Source of the DNA: Bacteriovoracaceae bacterium
GTDB lineage: Bacteria; Bdellovibrionota; Bacteriovoracia; Bacteriovoracales; Bacteriovoracaceae
Assembly: GCA_947441615.1 (NCBI GenBank)
Contig: CANEUH010000010.1
Location: 1-64,000, forward strand
Direction: 5' to 3'
DNA length: 64,000 bases
Below, in pieces: positions 30,383 through 38,288 of the stretch. The position numbers and the translations under genes were made by a program. The notes under the pieces are model-generated. The model was not told the origin of the DNA. It saw only the letters and a program-made list of their open reading frames with translations, and made no database searches. Numbering within the stretch: the stretch's first letter is position 1; the number at the start of each line of letters is the position of its first letter.

Positions 30383-31581
30383 AATACTTTAATGTGGATA
30401 AACCCCAAAGACTCAAACTCACAAGAGATCTTACAAAACATCTTAAGCGCGGTAACCCTTGGGTCTTTTCCGATGCAGTTGAAAAGATTAAGGCAACTGA
30501 AGGCTCCTACACGATACTCTTAAGTCACAAGAATGAAATCATTGCTCATGGGTTCTATTCTCCTAATATTAATCTCGCCTTTCGAGTTCTAAACCTAGGG
30601 GACAAAAAATTTAATGATCATGAAGTTGAAAAAAGACTCCATAGGGCCATCGCCAATAAAAAACATCTCCTCTCTCAAGAAAATAAATGCTTTCGATTTT
30701 TAAACGGTGAGGGAGACGAATTACCCGGAGTTGTGGCGGATTTCTATGATGGGGTTCTTGTTTTAAAACTTGATGGTGCTGCCTCAGAAAACTTTTGGGT
30801 TAAAGAAGCTTTTGCAGCCATTTTTATGGAGCAAAAAGAAATTCCTGTTAAATGCGTTTATTTTAAAAGAAAAAACAGAGAAGAAGAGAAAGGAATGATT
30901 CTTGCTGGTGAATGCGACAATCTGACTGACTTAGAATTTCTTGAACATGGTGTAAAATTTAGAACGAATATCATTGATGCTGCTAAAACTGGTTTCTTTC
31001 TAGATCAAAGAGAAAATAGAAATTTTATCCGTTCCGTATCTAAAGATAAGACTCTTCTCAATCTCTTTGGCTATACCGGTGGGTTTTCTGTCTATGCTGG
31101 ACTTGGTGGCGCAAGTAAGGTCACAACAGTCGATATTGCACCAAATGCCATAAAAGGTGCCGAGATAAACTGGGAAATTAATCACCTTTCTCCCGATAAG
31201 CATGAAGGTATTTGTGTTGATGCCTTTGAATTTGTAGCTGACGCTCAAAAACAAAAAAAGATGTGGGATATTGTGATTACTGATCCCCCAAGTTTTGCCC
31301 CCAACCAAAAAGCGGTTGATTCGGCCAAAGATGCTTACACCAAAGTCTTCGCAGACTCACTGAAACTCGTAAAAGATGGTGGATTCTTTGCGGCCTCAAG
31401 CTGCTCTGGGCACATTAGTTTTGAAATCTTTTTAGAAATTGTCCAAGAGGCCCTTTCAAAATCAAGACGTCGTGGAAAAGTACTTCTCATTAAGGGTCAA
31501 CCCGAAGATCATCCCTTCCCTTTTGCATTACCTGAAATGCGCTACTTAAAGTTTGTTTATCTTCAAGTTTTTTTGGATTGA
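30379..31581 (+). CDS. RlmI-like 23S rRNA methyltransferase with PUA domain
   Basis: This 400-residue protein has an N-terminal PUA-like domain (KHLKRGNPWVFSDAVEKI) and an EEHVD-like middle. The methyltransferase domain has motif I LLNLFGYTGGFSVYAGLGG, DQRENRNF upstream and motif IV DPPSFAPNQ, with a SCSGHIS catalytic-loop region. The order matches RlmI, which makes m5C1962 in 23S rRNA. It starts with GTG overlapping the previous gene. With 28674-29414 and 29432-30382 it makes a cluster of three RNA methyltransferase genes. The 3' end overlaps the convergent membrane protein gene by 19 bp. Confidence 0.83.
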   Translation: MKYFNVDKPQRLKLTRDLTKHLKRGNPWVFSDAVEKIKATEGSYTILLSHKNEIIAHGFYSPNINLAFRVLNLGDKKFNDHEVEKRLHRAIANKKHLLSQENKCFRFLNGEGDELPGVVADFYDGVLVLKLDGAASENFWVKEAFAAIFMEQKEIPVKCVYFKRKNREEEKGMILAGECDNLTDLEFLEHGVKFRTNIIDAAKTGFFLDQRENRNFIRSVSKDKTLLNLFGYTGGFSVYAGLGGASKVTTVDIAPNAIKGAEINWEINHLSPDKHEGICVDAFEFVADAQKQKKMWDIVITDPPSFAPNQKAVDSAKDAYTKVFADSLKLVKDGGFFAASSCSGHISFEIFLEIVQEALSKSRRRGKVLLIKGQPEDHPFPFALPEMRYLKFVYLQVFLD

Positions 31582-32099
31582 TAAAGATTCACTTTGGCAT
31601 AAATCGAACTCTTTACCATGAGCCAAAGCCCTTGAACGAGGATCGCCATCATGATCCAAGTTAAGTGGTAAGAGGGAGTCTCACTAGGTAGTTTGAAAGT
31701 TAGATTCAATAACATTAAAAGAGACCACAAAAAAGCTGGAAGAAAAATTAATGAGAATCTAAATCGACGCCAAACCCACCATAACTCCTCTGCCTTCATT
31801 CCCATAAATGCAACAAGCATTCCGCTCGATAAAAATAAGGATCCACAAAAACTAGCACAGGCCCAATCACCAATCATACGAAGGTGATGAGTGATTCCAT
31901 GCCCATCCATAAGCCCCAATCCAAACTGAGGACAAAATGACATTGAAAACAACGCACCTAAGAGCTGAAAAGATAAAAACTTAAAAAGAATAGAATGTTT
32001 ATGAAAACTAAGAGTGATATCTTTTTTAACGGCTTCTCTAAGTGCCGAGGGCGGTAATTCTTTATTCGTTAAAAATTCGAAGTAGGCCTTATTCTTCAT
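31563..32099 (-). CDS. Four-helix membrane protein, probable anti-sigma partner
   Basis: The 178-residue protein has a cytoplasmic N-terminus of about 35 residues followed by four predicted transmembrane helices (about 38-62, 80-102, 113-135 and 145-165). It overlaps the ECF sigma factor gene by 11 bp in the same orientation. That arrangement is typical of membrane anti-sigma factors. There is no zinc anti-sigma motif (HxxxCxxC), so the assignment rests on position and topology only. The soluble N-terminus (LPPSALREAVKKDITLS) would be the sigma-binding part if this is correct. Confidence 0.6.
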   Translation of the reverse strand: MKNKAYFEFLTNKELPPSALREAVKKDITLSFHKHSILFKFLSFQLLGALFSMSFCPQFGLGLMDGHGITHHLRMIGDWACASFCGSLFLSSGMLVAFMGMKAEELWWVWRRFRFSLIFLPAFLWSLLMLLNLTFKLPSETPSYHLTWIMMAILVQGLWLMVKSSIYAKVNLYQSKKT

Positions 32100-32589
32100 A
32101 CGATCTCCTCAAACCTTTTAATGCCCTAGATAGACGCTGGCGTAGGTTCGCTTGTGACAACCCTGTCGAATTCTCTAATTCCACATAACTGATTTCTTCA
32201 AGATAGTACTTTATAACGAGGTCCCTAGAATCGTCTGGTAAACGAGAAAGGATCTCTTCAATATCTGAATCTTGAGTTTGAGTATTAAAGGCTTGATCGA
32301 AAAGCTCATCTTTGAGCTCTCTCCCCCTTCTACCTAATGAGCGATACTCATCAATGAGAAGATGCCTAATCATGACAAAAAACCAGGGAGCAAAGGGCTG
32401 ATCCTTGTAGAGATGTCTTTTTTCATGAAGCTGGCGCCAAACTTTCTGAAACAAATCTTCTTGCTCAGAAAGACGCATCCTTTTTCTAATGAAGGCATAA
32501 ACCATCGAGGAATATTTATCGTAAAGAATGCCAAAGGCTTCTTCACTCCCCGATTGATACTCCCTCATCAGTTGTTCGTCAGTTTTCAT
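32089..32589 (-). CDS. ECF-type RNA polymerase sigma factor
   Basis: The 166-residue protein has sigma region 2 (EEAFGILYDKYSSMVYAFIR, LFQKVWRQLHEKRH, PWFFVMIRHLLIDEYRS) and region 4 with its helix-turn-helix (LPDDSRDLVIKYYLEEISY, ENSTGLSQANLRQRLSRAL). The region 2.2 segment has LFQKVW where DxxQEvF is usual. It lacks regions 1 and 3, as expected for the extracytoplasmic function group. It is followed by an overlapping membrane protein that is a plausible anti-sigma. The regulon and signal are unknown. Confidence 0.92.
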   Translation of the reverse strand: MKTDEQLMREYQSGSEEAFGILYDKYSSMVYAFIRKRMRLSEQEDLFQKVWRQLHEKRHLYKDQPFAPWFFVMIRHLLIDEYRSLGRRGRELKDELFDQAFNTQTQDSDIEEILSRLPDDSRDLVIKYYLEEISYVELENSTGLSQANLRQRLSRALKGLRRSYEE

Positions 32590-32654: not shown

Positions 32655-33722
32655 TTAAATCTTTCTTAGTGAGGTCTCAATTTCTTTTAGGAATTGGGCC
32701 GCGTACATGCCGTCAATAATCCTGTGATCAAAACCAAGAATGATATTAAATGACTTGGTAAAGGCTGAAGGCGCGCAAACACCCAAAATCGCCCCTTGGT
32801 CCTTATTCACGACGGGCATAAAATCCTTAACTCCAAGTGAAGATAAATCTGTCATGGTAAAGGTTCCACCAGAAAGATCACTCCCCTTGAGCTCATCTCT
32901 TACATAGTTCATAGCGAGGTCTTTAAAGGATCTTGAAATGTCCCCTAATGATAAAGAGTTTAGGTTTTTAATAACAGGAACTTTTAGTCCTTTTCCGATA
33001 TTAATAGCGACACCAAGGTTATAATCTGAATACTTTCTAATTTTATTTTTGGTGTAACAAGAGTTAACATAAGGATATTTTTTAATCGCCGAGCTTGTAC
33101 CAAAAGCAATAATTTCTCCAAGTGTTGTTCCTGGATGAGAATGTTGGATTTTTTCAATTAATTCAAAAGAAATTTCTCTAACCACTTTTGAATAGATCAC
33201 ATCACTCGATTGTTTTAAGTAATGAATCTCAAAAGCCTTAGTGGGAGAAGGTTCTTCATCAATAAAATGAGCATCTGGAGTTGTTTCAGCTGATTGAGAA
33301 GATTTTGAGACGAGATTATGTTTCTCAATGTAGTCCCTGACTTCCTTTTCACCCACCCGAGAATCAGAGCTAGGGAAAACGGAACTATCAATCCCGAATT
33401 CATCAATAATCTTCTGTGCCTTTCTAGTCATTCTTCCTGACTGTGAATCTTCACTTTTGGTTACTTCAGTGAACGTAAAATCCTTATTAGATGAAATAGC
33501 AAAAAGTGTATCACCAATTTCTACACGATCACCTTCTTGGTGTTTGAAAAATAAATAACCGTCTTGAGGAGCTTCAACATCATAGGCATTCTTCGTTGCT
33601 TCTAGAGAACAAACAATCTCTTTGGCCTTAATTTCTGAACCACTCTTTTTTGATTGAGAAGCTACAATAACAAATTCATCGTTAGGATTTTCTCTGTGAA
33701 CTTTATAAATAAAATCACTCAT
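32655..33722 (-). CDS. Lipoyl-domain E2 acyltransferase of a 2-oxoacid dehydrogenase
   Basis: The start is set at 33722, where a GGGAG site and the overlap with the E1 stop fit. The 355-residue E2 has one lipoyl domain with the lipoylated lysine at Lys44 (SLEATKNAYDV). A peripheral subunit-binding domain follows (about 97-136, RMTRKAQKIIDEFGID, GEKEVRDYIEKHN). The catalytic acyltransferase domain ends in GFDHRIIDG with catalytic His333. All parts needed to accept an acyl group from E1 and pass it to a thiol acceptor are present. It is the last gene of the MBOAT-SGNH-ACP-E1-E2 operon. No E3 gene is in the window. Standard E2 proteins deliver acyl groups to CoA; delivery to the neighbouring ACP is my inference. 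Confidence 0.88.
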   Translation of the reverse strand: MSDFIYKVHRENPNDEFVIVASQSKKSGSEIKAKEIVCSLEATKNAYDVEAPQDGYLFFKHQEGDRVEIGDTLFAISSNKDFTFTEVTKSEDSQSGRMTRKAQKIIDEFGIDSSVFPSSDSRVGEKEVRDYIEKHNLVSKSSQSAETTPDAHFIDEEPSPTKAFEIHYLKQSSDVIYSKVVREISFELIEKIQHSHPGTTLGEIIAFGTSSAIKKYPYVNSCYTKNKIRKYSDYNLGVAINIGKGLKVPVIKNLNSLSLGDISRSFKDLAMNYVRDELKGSDLSGGTFTMTDLSSLGVKDFMPVVNKDQGAILGVCAPSAFTKSFNIILGFDHRIIDGMYAAQFLKEIETSLRKI

Positions 33723-35646
33723 CAAATAACTCCCAGATAGCATTTTCTACATCTTTTGATTTTGGTAAAACCTGCTTCTCTAGATAAGTACTAGCTGGAA
33801 GAGGCAATGGTTTCGCGTTTAATACTTTTGAATGGAAAGTGACTTCACTTGAAAGGATTTTAGAAAGTTCACTTAATAGAGAGTCCGAAAGACTATGAAC
33901 CGGAGTTCCTTCTTCAAGGAAAAGGATCTTCTTCGTTTTTCTCACGGACTCAGAAATTTCATGAATGAGATTAGGGCCATTGAGATCTAATGGATAAAAG
34001 ACATCGAGATAAACCTCTTCATCGGAAAAGTTTTTCATTAGTGGCTCTAAACTGAGTCCCATTGATCCAAGAGAAACAACAGTAATATCCGAACCTTCCA
34101 GGGAGCGGAGTCTAGAGTAAGGGAATTTGTCAGCTGATTCATAGAGCTCATAAAGGTCTGGGACTTTTTTGAAGGGATCCTGAGAATAAAGAAGCTTATG
34201 CTCAAAAACAATTGATGGATGCTGAGCATGGGAAGCAAGCGTGTTGTAGAACTTGAACGCATCAACTCTTGGGTGAAACACAAAAAAACCAAGATCAGGA
34301 ATACCCAGAAAATGTTTTTCAATACATTGGCTATGGGTCGCCCCATACCCTCTTCCGCCACCCATTGGGGTTCTAATAATCAAGGGAGCTTTAACAAGTT
34401 TCCCGAACATTCTCTTCATTTTGGCGGCATGATTTAAAATTTGATCAAAGGCCAATGCCAGAAAATCACCAAACATAATTTCAGAAAAAACGAGACGCCC
34501 AGTTGTCGATGCTCCTAGAGAGATCCCGATAAGACTAGGCTCACTGATGGGCATATTGAGAACTCTTCCCTCAAATTGACTTGATAGTCCCTTAGACGCC
34601 TTAAAAGCTCCTCCGTATGGGTCTTTTACGTCCTCGCCTAAAAACAATGCTTCTGGGTTAGTTGTAAAAATTTGATGGAAAGCTTTATTAATTTCTTTAA
34701 GTTGAGTTGTCTGGTTCTCAACTGGGTTCATTTTATTTTCTGAGAATTGACCTTTAGCTGATTTATCCATTTCTAAAATAATTGAATCAGGTGTTTCAAG
34801 TGCCTTCTGAATCACTTGGTCAACGTAGAGATCAAATTCTTTAATTTCTTTTTCAATTTCTGGAGATAATGATTTTAAAAATTTATTTAAAGAATCCTTA
34901 TCTTTTGCCTCATTAATTTCATTCGGATCACGTTGATCGTCACCCTTTGAATGAGGGTTAAGTCTATAGGTCTGAACCTCAATTAATGCAGGTCTTGAAT
35001 GATTTCTTACAAAACTAACCGCCATGCCCATTTGCTCAATTAATGTTTCTGGTTCATTCGTGGAGCCACAAAAATAATCAACACCAAAGGCCCGGGCTCG
35101 GTCTGCAATAGTCCCAGAAAGAGTTTCATGCTGGGAAGTTGATTGAGAGTAAAAATTATTTTCTACAACAATGAGATGAGGGAGGTTGTGCTTAGAAATG
35201 AAATTCAGTGTTTCATATATCACACCCTGACCGAGGGTTCCGTCACCAATAAATGAAATAGCGATCTTATGATTATTTGCAATTTTATTTGATAGGGCAA
35301 CACCAGCGGCCGTCGGAACCATTCCACCCTGAATACCAGATGAATAAAATCCATCTCTATGGATATGCTGGCTACCACCAAAACCCTGGTTAACTCCGTG
35401 AGGTTTTCCTAAAATTTCTGCAATAAGTCCTTCATAATCTTTGTAAATGGCCAGGTAGTGCCCGTGGCACCGGTGATTAGAAACAACCACGTCACCAGAA
35501 GAAAGATGAGAAGCAAGAGAGATACCAGAAAATTCTTGGCCCACACAAGTATGGATGGTACCACCCACAAGTCCCTGTCCAAAAAGATCTAAAAGGGATT
35601 GTTCAACTTTTCTAATCTTATAGGCCAATAAATATGAGTCTTTCAT
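33715..35646 (-). CDS. Fused E1 alpha-beta of a 2-oxoacid dehydrogenase
   Basis: This 643-residue thiamine-diphosphate enzyme decarboxylates a 2-oxoacid and acylates the lipoyl group of E2. The first half is E1-alpha: TPP motif GDG at 134-136 ending in ENN at 162-164, preceded by SGIQGGMVPTAAGVALS. The second half, from about 315, is E1-beta (LFLGEDVKDPYGGAF, SEPSLIGISLGASTTG, RTPMGGGRGYGATHSQ). Fusion of the two chains is seen in some branched-chain and pyruvate-type enzymes. The 2-oxoacid cannot be read from sequence. The gene lies 2 bp after the ACP gene and overlaps E2 by 8 nt, so all are likely translated together. Confidence 0.9.
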   Translation of the reverse strand: MKDSYLLAYKIRKVEQSLLDLFGQGLVGGTIHTCVGQEFSGISLASHLSSGDVVVSNHRCHGHYLAIYKDYEGLIAEILGKPHGVNQGFGGSQHIHRDGFYSSGIQGGMVPTAAGVALSNKIANNHKIAISFIGDGTLGQGVIYETLNFISKHNLPHLIVVENNFYSQSTSQHETLSGTIADRARAFGVDYFCGSTNEPETLIEQMGMAVSFVRNHSRPALIEVQTYRLNPHSKGDDQRDPNEINEAKDKDSLNKFLKSLSPEIEKEIKEFDLYVDQVIQKALETPDSIILEMDKSAKGQFSENKMNPVENQTTQLKEINKAFHQIFTTNPEALFLGEDVKDPYGGAFKASKGLSSQFEGRVLNMPISEPSLIGISLGASTTGRLVFSEIMFGDFLALAFDQILNHAAKMKRMFGKLVKAPLIIRTPMGGGRGYGATHSQCIEKHFLGIPDLGFFVFHPRVDAFKFYNTLASHAQHPSIVFEHKLLYSQDPFKKVPDLYELYESADKFPYSRLRSLEGSDITVVSLGSMGLSLEPLMKNFSDEEVYLDVFYPLDLNGPNLIHEISESVRKTKKILFLEEGTPVHSLSDSLLSELSKILSSEVTFHSKVLNAKPLPLPASTYLEKQVLPKSKDVENAIWELFDE

Positions 35647-35648
35647 TA

Positions 35649-35888
35649 TTAATTTAATCTCGATTGAATTTCTGTAAGAATATTGTCCACAGACGTTAAA
35701 ACCGCTGCAGTTGCCCCATCAAAACGAAACCCAAAGGTTTTTTCAATTTCAACCAATAGAGTTATGTGGTGCATGGAATCCCAGTATCCAAAATTTTCAC
35801 GAGAGAGATCCTTATTAAAATGGAACTCCTCATCGAAGACCTTGGTAAAACAAGTATGAATTTTTTCTAAAATTTGATCTTCGTTCAT
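35649..35888 (-). CDS. Acyl carrier protein
   Basis: The 79-residue acidic protein is a carrier domain. The phosphopantetheine serine is Ser38 in YWDSMHH, in place of the usual DSL. Surrounding helices fit the ACP fold (EDQILEKIHTCFTKVF, HITLLVEIEKTFGF, LTSVDNILTEIQ). It is not the housekeeping fatty-acid ACP, because it lies between a membrane O-acyltransferase pair and an E1/E2 pair. By analogy with DltC it would carry the group that is exported. It overlaps the preceding SGNH-like gene by 4 nt. Confidence 0.88.
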   Translation of the reverse strand: MNEDQILEKIHTCFTKVFDEEFHFNKDLSRENFGYWDSMHHITLLVEIEKTFGFRFDGATAAVLTSVDNILTEIQSRLN

Positions 35889-36835
35889 TTTTGACTCCAG
35901 ATTTCTTCTAAGATGATTTTTGAAAATTTACGAGTTGGGTGTGTTGAATTACCGAAATATTCTTTGGTATTAAAATCTTTAACTTTTTCAGTGGTAAAAT
36001 CGTGAAAAGCATCAAAGATTCCGTGAGCAGTATTCTTATATAGATGAAATGACTCCCTCATGTGAGAGTCCGACATTATTTTGTTGTAGTGATCAATAGA
36101 AAGCGGTGCTGAAAGAACAACCAATTTAATACCTGAATCTCGACACTCCTCTTGGATATTTTTTAAAAGTTGTACTCTGTTTTCATCTAACTTCCAATTT
36201 TGATGAGAAAACTGAACGACTTCAATTGGACCTGTGCCATCTTTTTGAGGGATGTAGTTCCCGTGATCAAGATATTGATGACGAATTTCTCCAAATAAAT
36301 TGATAAGGATGACCCTAAATGTGTCTCTGAGAGCATCCAATGTAATATAGTTATTTGAGAAGATATCGGCCTTTACATAAGTATTCTTATTTTCAGCACC
36401 CAAAAAATCTTTAAGTGGAGAAGAATAGAGAATTTTATCGGTTTCATAATTTTTATCCAGATCAACAAAAGCAATCTGAAGAACAATCAATTTAGGCTTA
36501 AACTTAGACTTAATATGATTGATGATCGCCACATAATCTTCAGGAGTGGTGTGCTGGACGGCATAGTTAAAAGTCTTAAGTCCAGTTAGTTTTTCAAGAT
36601 CTTCAGTATGATATTTATGCGCAGTTGAACTTCCTATGATAAAAGCCTCGTAGGGACTCTTTGAGCTCTCTAGCATATAAAACTTATTATCTCGGGAGCT
36701 TGCAACAGCTTTTGTCTTAAAACCAAAAAGATTTATTCCAAGTTTATCATAAGGGTCAACGGCGACGACTAACCCATAGGCCAGGGAGAAAAGAAGAACA
36801 AAATAGAAAAAGAAAAGACGATTAAATTTTGTCAT
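35885..36835 (-). CDS. Membrane-anchored SGNH-like protein (DltD/AlgJ-like partner)
   Basis: The N-terminus has one transmembrane helix (about 5-27) with the rest predicted outside the membrane. The nucleophile-like block EAFIIGSSTAHKY (64-76) resembles block I of SGNH proteins. A C-terminal GNSTHPTRKFS (295-305) stands where the Asp-x-x-His block is expected, with Asn296 and His299, so the usual Asp is replaced. SGNH-like partners of MBOAT proteins (DltD, AlgJ/AlgX, PatB) act in moving acyl groups to polymers outside the inner membrane. It lies 1 bp from the MBOAT gene and overlaps the ACP gene. Confidence 0.7.
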   Translation of the reverse strand: MTKFNRLFFFYFVLLFSLAYGLVVAVDPYDKLGINLFGFKTKAVASSRDNKFYMLESSKSPYEAFIIGSSTAHKYHTEDLEKLTGLKTFNYAVQHTTPEDYVAIINHIKSKFKPKLIVLQIAFVDLDKNYETDKILYSSPLKDFLGAENKNTYVKADIFSNNYITLDALRDTFRVILINLFGEIRHQYLDHGNYIPQKDGTGPIEVVQFSHQNWKLDENRVQLLKNIQEECRDSGIKLVVLSAPLSIDHYNKIMSDSHMRESFHLYKNTAHGIFDAFHDFTTEKVKDFNTKEYFGNSTHPTRKFSKIILEEIWSQK

Positions 36836-36836
36836 A

Positions 36837-38288
36837 TTAAAAATTAAAGTAAATAAATTCGGTTAATCTATTAAGTCCAAAAATACATAATACAAACATC
36901 ACTGAACTTAGGATAGCTAACTGATGAGTGGGCTTGAATGTTTGTGAATACTCAAAAGAGTTTTTAAATTTTTTAACCAAAATCAAACTCAAAATAATTA
37001 ATCCAAGATGCAAATTCTCATCATTAATCATTCGAGGACCGTATTTAATGCCAACTGAATTCATAAACTCAGTGGATAAAATTCCTTTAGGCATTTGAAA
37101 TCCAGAGAAACCAAACATCCCTTTATAAATTTTTAAAGCACTACCGACGGTCTTAGCTCTAAACATGGTGAAGCACATGGAAACAAATATAAAAGTCACG
37201 GGCCAAGAGATATAGGTAGGAAGTTTAATTTTATATTTTTTCCAGTTGTGATGAACAACGATAGCTGCACCGTGAAGGACACCAAAGATTACAAAGGTCC
37301 AAGCAGCTCCATGCCAAAGGCCTGCAATCGTCATGGCAAGAAACATTGAAAGCATCATATAAGGGAAAGTCATTTTAGGCATCGATCTCACGATCGGAGT
37401 AAAAATATAGGCGGTAATAAAATTTGTTAAGGTTATATGCCAGCGGGACCAGAAATCGACGATATTGGTAGATTTATAAGGAGATTTAAAATTGGCGGGA
37501 ATCTTTATGTTAAACATCGCTCCAAGACCAATTGCCATATCCGAGTAACCACTGAAATCAAAGTATATCTGGAATGCGTACGCTAGACATGTACCCCAAG
37601 CAGAAAAGAAATGAAGATCTCCAACCTTATTGAAGCCCTCACTAGCGAACGGAGCAAAGGTATCTGCGATAATGACTTTTTTAAATAGGCCTAAAATAAA
37701 AATGAAGATACCAAGTGAAAGGGCTTCTGGACGGAAACTTTTATTATCCTTACTTTGGAATTGAGGAATAATGTCTTTATAGTGAACGATTGGGCCAGCA
37801 ACGAGTTGAGGGAAAAATGTCACAAAGAGGCCATAATCGATAAACTTATTTTCTTTCGCCTGTCCAGTATAGACGTCGATCACAAAAGCAAGCTGCTGAA
37901 GAGTGAAAAATGAAATCCCAAGTGGTAACACAATTTTTAAAAGACCAATTTCAGATCCAAAAACCCAATTAATATTTTCAATAAAGAAATCCATGTATTT
38001 AAAAAAACATAGAAGACCAATATTAAAAACGATCGCCAGGTAGAATAAGGCCTTTCGTTTTGACGGAACCTTTACCTTGATTAAAAAATCAGAAATAAAG
38101 TAATTCACGAGAATCGAAGTAAGAATTAAAATGGAATATTTAACGTTTCCAAAAGCGTAAAAGAACAAGGAAGTAAAAAAGAGCCAATATTTGGCCTCAG
38201 TTATTTTTTGAAATTTTAATAACAAAAAATAAGTCATCACCGTTACCGGCAGAAAGGCAAAAATGAAGATATAAGAATTAAAAAGCAT
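36837..38288 (-). CDS. MBOAT-family membrane O-acyltransferase (AlgI/DltB-like)
   Basis: The 483-residue protein has about ten transmembrane segments. The family signature includes SPYKSTNIVDFWSRWHITLTNF (269-290) and the catalytic histidine His326 in AGLWHGAAWTF, followed by FGVLHG. The region YFDFSGYSDMAIGLGAMFNI is strongly conserved in AlgI and DltB. Such proteins pass an acyl group from a cytoplasmic donor to an acceptor on the outer side of the inner membrane. It is the first gene of the operon and sets its role as envelope acylation. The acceptor polymer or lipid is unknown. Confidence 0.92.
   Translation of the reverse strand: MLFNSYIFIFAFLPVTVMTYFLLLKFQKITEAKYWLFFTSLFFYAFGNVKYSILILTSILVNYFISDFLIKVKVPSKRKALFYLAIVFNIGLLCFFKYMDFFIENINWVFGSEIGLLKIVLPLGISFFTLQQLAFVIDVYTGQAKENKFIDYGLFVTFFPQLVAGPIVHYKDIIPQFQSKDNKSFRPEALSLGIFIFILGLFKKVIIADTFAPFASEGFNKVGDLHFFSAWGTCLAYAFQIYFDFSGYSDMAIGLGAMFNIKIPANFKSPYKSTNIVDFWSRWHITLTNFITAYIFTPIVRSMPKMTFPYMMLSMFLAMTIAGLWHGAAWTFVIFGVLHGAAIVVHHNWKKYKIKLPTYISWPVTFIFVSMCFTMFRAKTVGSALKIYKGMFGFSGFQMPKGILSTEFMNSVGIKYGPRMINDENLHLGLIILSLILVKKFKNSFEYSQTFKPTHQLAILSSVMFVLCIFGLNRLTEFIYFNF

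Follow-up and report, generated by a model that had tools for sequence, protein, structure and literature searches.

A candidate ligase-free acylation operon that joins a ThDP/lipoyl E1-E2 pair and an acyl carrier protein to an MBOAT/SGNH pair in a Bacteriovoracaceae bacterium

The 64,000-nucleotide stretch of Bacteriovoracaceae DNA analysed here (contig CANEUH010000010.1, positions 1 to 64,000; hereafter the window) carries five ORFs at positions 32655-38288 of the minus strand, in a Bacteriovorax-like genome of 3.26 Mb in 40 contigs. In order of transcription, these encode an MBOAT acyltransferase, a membrane-anchored SGNH-like protein, an acyl carrier protein (ACP), a fused E1 alpha-beta subunit and a lipoyl-bearing E2, with intergenic gaps of 1, -4, 2 and -8 bp when the E2 is started at MSDF... 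(position 33722). The initial annotation had described the same positions as a tight five-gene operon of an MBOAT protein, an SGNH-like protein, a dedicated ACP with Ser38, a fused E1 with an intact TPP motif and an E2 with lipoyl Lys44 and catalytic His333. The operon and its numbering hold up, as does every one of these identities except that of the SGNH-like protein, for which the evidence is more mixed. No polymer-synthesis genes that would point to an acceptor flank the operon. Just downstream of the E2 gene, on the same strand (31563-32589), are genes for an ECF-like factor of the sigma-70 family and for a small membrane protein, which are not kept with the operon in a relative from the same genus (L042).

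The MBOAT protein (36837..38288, minus strand; 483 aa) is DltB/AlgI-like. It matches PF03062 at 88 bits in Pfam, and its nearest NCBIfam model is DltB (TIGR04091), for which its score of 179.7 bits falls short of the cut-off (375). It contains His326 and terminates in FIYFNF, an instance of the FxYxxF acyl-tyrosine motif with the tyrosine at position 480. In PatA the tyrosine of this motif bears the acyl group, as it does in Dlt systems, where the motif resides on DltX (PMC12148441). The neighboring membrane-anchored protein (35885..36835, minus strand; 316 aa) is DltD-like and contains a GSS motif at residues 68-70 and an NSTHP motif that includes His299, both of which are kept among relatives. 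Its assignment to the SGNH fold is favored by these motifs and by its top PDB matches, which are TesA-type SGNH hydrolases (E 1e-4). The protein has no Pfam match, however, and its structural model is of low confidence (pLDDT 56), which makes this the weaker assignment. The carrier protein (35649..35888, minus strand; 79 aa) also fares weakly against library models, scoring 19.7 bits for DltC and lacking a Pfam match. Its Ser38, located within a WDSM motif, is nonetheless the one invariant column among ten related ACPs.

The E1 (33715..35646, minus strand; 643 aa) is a ThDP enzyme that combines PF00676 with PF02779 and retains the GDG...ENN TPP motif, as well as both active-site histidines (alpha His232 and beta His438 in the family alignment). 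The E2 (32655..33722, minus strand; 355 aa; PF00364 and PF00198) begins with a lipoyl domain bearing Lys44, followed by a divergent stretch that, as read by eye and without a Pfam match, fills the position of the subunit-binding domain. Its catalytic domain contains D332-H333-R334 and D337, the equivalents of Asp374, His375, Arg376 and Asp379 of E. coli SucB, and the confident structural model of the protein matches E2 cores in the PDB. This domain architecture and set of catalytic residues are shared with the canonical pyruvate and branched-chain 2-oxoacid dehydrogenases, but the window E1 belongs to a clade separate from canonical PDH E1s (support 100/100), neither protein reaches the curated PDH/BCDH cut-offs, scores against curated PDH models being far too low (184 bits versus 394; 130 versus 321), and the operon lacks an E3. 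On the basis of the cut-offs and the tree, a canonical PDH/BCDH complex was rejected. Elsewhere, the genome encodes two further full-length E2 proteins, each with an adjoining E3, and a stand-alone PF00198 protein of 273 aa in which no lipoyl domain was found by eye (contig C30; L005:946-1767).

The usual catalytic residues of the E2, and the resemblance of its model to CoA-using E2 cores, are also consistent with an ordinary CoA-acylating dehydrogenase that yields acyl-CoA, the ACP being loaded separately by a transferase or by a distant AMP ligase. Such ligases (PF00501) are encoded elsewhere in the genome, the nearest residing 20 kb away, and none is present in the operon. Against this arrangement stand the complete E2/E3 pairs that the genome already possesses and, more broadly, the genomic associations of the E1 family. 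Scanning an alignment of the E1 against 85,000 species genomes recovered 329 relatives, 80 of which were kept for analysis; the two closest are 91% and 70% identical to the window E1, and the remainder, drawn from many phyla, are 38-44% identical over nearly the full length. A lipoyl-E2 gene follows that of the E1 in 48/50 clustered loci, and in most loci the next gene encodes a fusion of an ACP with a phosphopantetheinyl transferase (PPTase; PF01648) of the ACPS type. E3 is absent from all of the family loci examined.

The loci can be sorted by the domain that is fused to the lipoyl domain, which is either a catalytic E2 domain or a PglD-like hexapeptide sugar acyltransferase. The catalytic-E2 class numbers 59 loci, 57 of them long enough to judge. 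An adjacent ACP gene is present in 51 of these 57, and two more (L050 and L116) reside within NRPS/PKS clusters. When the sugar acyltransferase takes the place of the catalytic domain, an ACP is found in 0/10 loci (Fisher p ~3e-8 for loci that are phylogenetically related to one another), and about four changes on the tree are needed to account for the hexapeptide state. We read this distribution as suggesting that the catalytic E2 domain goes together with an ACP as its acceptor, and that the ACP may be dispensable when a fused sugar acyltransferase performs the acceptor step. In loci such as L040:8530-9639, L046:3450-4556 and L082:5916-6980, where the lipoyl-PglD_N/hexapeptide fusion lies beside an E1 of the same family without an ACP, acyl groups could possibly pass from the lipoyl arm directly to a sugar, bypassing both CoA and ACP.

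The E1/E2 family thus appears to work with carrier proteins, as indicated by the adjacency of ACP genes, by the ACP-PPTase fusions, by the canonical E1/E2/E3 control loci, in which no ACP-PPTase was found, and by a locus of Ruminiclostridium sufflavum (L116:11899-19071) in which the gene immediately after that of the E1 encodes a PKS that has three carrier domains and bears the lipoyl-E2 at its N-terminus. The proposal of the initial annotation that the E1/E2 pair passes its acyl group to the ACP is well supported by this comparative genomics, and it is very probable, judging from these sequence associations, that the pair charges the ACP. Several observations weigh on the other side: no ACP is visible in four of the 57 catalytic-E2 loci, the window ACP stands alone where most relatives have PPTase fusions, and one locus (L157:7261-11025) consists of a family E1-E2 pair followed by a lipoate-protein ligase-like gene, with no ACP. 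This last arrangement would suit a CoA-acylating dehydrogenase. Nevertheless, the family-wide adjacency of the ACP, its loss when the catalytic E2 domain is replaced, the E2-PKS fusion and the lack of a ligase in all MBOAT-type operons, discussed below, make separate loading of the ACP from acyl-CoA or by a distant ligase quite unlikely.

Other features vary across the family. The E2 proteins of six loci of the ACP-PPTase type (L044, L063, L094, L098, L113 and L115) possess a C-terminal CxxC...CxxC extension, which the window E2 lacks. In L077 (4469-6298), and at the same position in L098, L108 and L115, the ACP-PPTase gene is followed by one for a pyridine-nucleotide-disulphide oxidoreductase-like protein of 560-609 aa, perhaps a dedicated lipoyl reoxidase. 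An E1-E2-ACP-PPTase cassette also occurs in a metagenome-assembled genome (MAG) titled Klebsiella pneumoniae (L049), although this species label looks doubtful.

Charging of an ACP by an E1/E2 pair of this kind has precedent in antibiotic biosynthesis. The best plasmid-borne relative of the window E1 is RenH, the fused E1 of the renieramycin cluster, which is 43% identical to it, whereas canonical E1s are ~31-33% identical; in addition, a Streptomyces plasmid carries an ACP-E1a-E1b-E2 gene set beside an NRPS gene. The E1 tree places RenH, like the NRPS/PKS-linked E1s, within the family of the window E1 and leaves the canonical E1s outside it (100/100). QncL/M/N were shown to direct how a C2 glycolyl unit is formed and attached, and for SclQ1-4 the proposed source of this unit is a ketose phosphate, for example xylulose-5-phosphate (PMC6335953). 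A glycolyl unit and a ketose phosphate source are likewise described for homologs of NapB and NapD (PMC6335953, PMC7570522). Like the window operon, the NapB/NapC/NapD and QncL/QncM/QncN modules of tetrahydroisoquinoline antibiotics, SclQ1-4 of scleric acid and RenH/RenI comprise a ThDP E1, a catalytic lipoyl-E2 and a discrete ACP, and require no adenylation for the unit concerned. Ligase-free charging by E1/E2 therefore has a precedent. These antibiotic modules feed an NRPS, however, while the putative partner in the window is an MBOAT/SGNH pair. The glyceryl-ACP route of tetronate biosynthesis (FkbH-like protein, Agg4/QmnD3) also charges a discrete ACP without a ligase and uses E2-family acyltransferases with acceptors other than the CoA thiol (PMC5819245); it differs in having no E1, and the window operon has neither an FkbH-like protein nor a ketoacyl synthase.

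This likeness to glycolyl-ACP synthases, which is evident from sequence comparison, is what the initial annotation missed. Given this resemblance and the 43% identity to RenH, a ketose phosphate would be as likely a donor as a 2-oxoacid. Oxidative decarboxylation of a 2-oxoacid, the source of the acyl-thioester in the initial annotation, stands as one option only, because the closest annotated relatives of the E1 are of the reported ketose-phosphate/glycolyl-ACP type. It would make the window operon the same system with a different unit, derived by true decarboxylation of pyruvate (giving acetyl) or of a branched or hydroxy 2-oxoacid. The nearest Pfam/NCBIfam placement of the E1, which is PDH E1, and the conservation of both of its active-site histidines accord with such chemistry. 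Conversely, the wide margin by which the curated PDH models are missed, and the grouping of the E1 with RenH and NRPS/PKS-linked E1s rather than with canonical ones, point away from it, and acetyl is obtainable from acetyl-CoA, as in PatA, without machinery of this sort (PMC12148441). We regard the 2-oxoacid version as a genuine but rather doubtful possibility. By analogy with the antibiotic modules, the chance that the group is glycolyl is about even, an extrapolation from E1s that are 35-43% identical.

Five loci join the E1-E2-ACP module to an MBOAT and an SGNH-like protein, and they represent three lineages. In addition to the window operon, these are two from the same genus (L041 and L042), one from the same family (L117), in which the E1 is 40% identical and the gene order is unchanged, and one from a Nitrospirae MAG (L043), where the order is ACP-E1-E2-MBOAT-SGNH. 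The five-gene set thus recurs at 91% and 70% E1 identity and again in two distant genomes at 40-44%. Within the genus, the operon is patchy, being present in 3/26 genomes, and no further MBOAT-type locus was found among 296 genomes drawn from the phylum of the Nitrospirae MAG. The MBOAT-linked E1s form one clade (support 100/99) that spans two phyla and two gene orders, which argues that the linkage between MBOAT and module is old and survives gene reordering. A chance neighborhood was rejected because the same gene set recurs in distant genomes in two orders. No AMP ligase is present in the other four operons, as in that of the window, so that the absence of an adenylation enzyme noted in the initial annotation is borne out across the MBOAT-type operons. 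The conserved neighborhoods without DltA that it had suggested seeking do exist; homologous operons with a separate loading ligase, which it had named as a finding that would tell against its proposal, did not appear.

The genomic context likewise bears on whether the E1, E2 and ACP might serve an unrelated, soluble metabolite of NRPS/PKS type, the MBOAT and SGNH proteins being an independent acetylation pair that uses acetyl-CoA. Relatives of the module are indeed found in NRPS/PKS clusters, and carrier-free MBOAT/SGNH pairs use acyl-CoA (PMC12148441). The window operon contains no NRPS or PKS gene, however, the same five genes are kept together in distant genomes in two orders, and the only MBOAT encoded by the genome is the one in this operon. 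Such a division of labor is very unlikely, and the MBOAT/SGNH pair is probably, by analogy with known systems, the user of the acyl-ACP.

Those systems differ from the window operon in informative ways. Acylation by an MBOAT and an SGNH protein with an ACP donor is established for Dlt (PMC12148441), and Dlt D-alanylation (DltA/B/C/D/X) likewise depends on an MBOAT, a dedicated ACP with its serine and an FxYxxF motif; as a counterpart of its SGNH-type protein DltD, the window operon offers a protein with SGNH-like motifs and a weak fold match. In the window operon, E1 and E2 stand in place of DltA, and the tyrosine motif is found at the C-terminus of the MBOAT itself rather than on the DltX microprotein. 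Membership in the Dlt family was rejected, as there is no DltA and no separate DltX and the DltB model is matched below its cut-off. PatA/PatB and AlgI/AlgJ/AlgX, which acetylate envelope polymers of Gram-negative bacteria, likewise pair an SGNH partner with an MBOAT that has its own C-terminal FxYxxF. PatA uses acetyl-CoA without a carrier protein (PMC12148441), whereas the window operon encodes a dedicated ACP and a putative enzyme pair to charge it.

The best explanation is a ligase-free, carrier-protein-dependent system for envelope acylation. We consider it likely from the comparative evidence, since the MBOAT-linked E1s form one clade, the operons are free of ligases, and the E2 catalytic residues, the lipoyl lysine, the ACP serine and the His and Tyr of the MBOAT are conserved, the MBOAT motif being kept in L041, L042, L117 and L043. 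The long branch of the L117 E1 and the small sample of MBOAT-type loci weigh against it. From the chemistry of its family, the E1 would form an activated two-carbon (or other short) acyl unit on ThDP and deliver it to the lipoyl arm of the E2. The E2 catalytic domain would then load this unit onto the dedicated ACP, at its phosphopantetheine, and not mainly onto CoA, as gene association strongly suggests, and a host E3 encoded elsewhere would presumably reoxidize the lipoyl arm. By analogy with Dlt and PatAB, acyl-ACP would serve the MBOAT as donor, its acyl group crossing the membrane to reach the tyrosine of the C-terminal FxYxxF motif of the MBOAT, and the serine of the SGNH protein would take it from there to an envelope polymer. 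In the light of NapB/C/D and QncL/M/N, the group would most likely be glycolyl from a ketose phosphate, the main alternative being acetyl from pyruvate or another 2-oxoacid, and our best guess for the product is O-glycolylation of an envelope polymer.

Elsewhere in the family, the genes upstream of the E1 often encode hexapeptide acyltransferases (a cluster found in 29/50 loci) or AT3 membrane acyltransferases (5), and glycosyltransferases are encoded near the cassette. Because of these neighbors, the cassette looks like a general supply of acyl-ACP for surface polysaccharides, of which the window operon would be the MBOAT version. What is new is the coupling of ligase-free E1/E2 charging of an ACP to an MBOAT/SGNH pair, both halves being already known. 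A literature search for 2-oxoacid dehydrogenase, ACP and MBOAT together returned nothing relevant, and no paper was found that joins carrier-dependent MBOAT/SGNH acylation with E1/E2/ACP modules of the glycolyl-ACP type; as far as we could find, a link between the E1/E2 loading known from antibiotic biosynthesis and modification of the cell envelope is apparently new. It is conceivable, if somewhat speculative, that ThDP/lipoyl E1-E2 pairs are general, ligase-free chargers of dedicated ACPs for surface-polymer acylation in many phyla, drawing on central carbon metabolites, and that in this bacterium such a pair feeds an MBOAT/SGNH exporter to produce an envelope glycolyl (hydroxyacetyl) ester. 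To our knowledge, no comparable pathway to such an ester has been described. As both half-reactions have precedents in vitro, the claim is directly testable. If true, MBOAT acylation from a carrier protein would be possible without an ATP-driven ligase, through redox decarboxylation or ketol-transfer chemistry, and decoration of the envelope would be coupled to central metabolic state. The E1-E2-ACP-PPTase cassette, present in many phyla, mostly has hexapeptide or AT3 acyltransferases and glycosyltransferases as neighbors, and it may then explain unassigned acyl groups on many exopolysaccharides.
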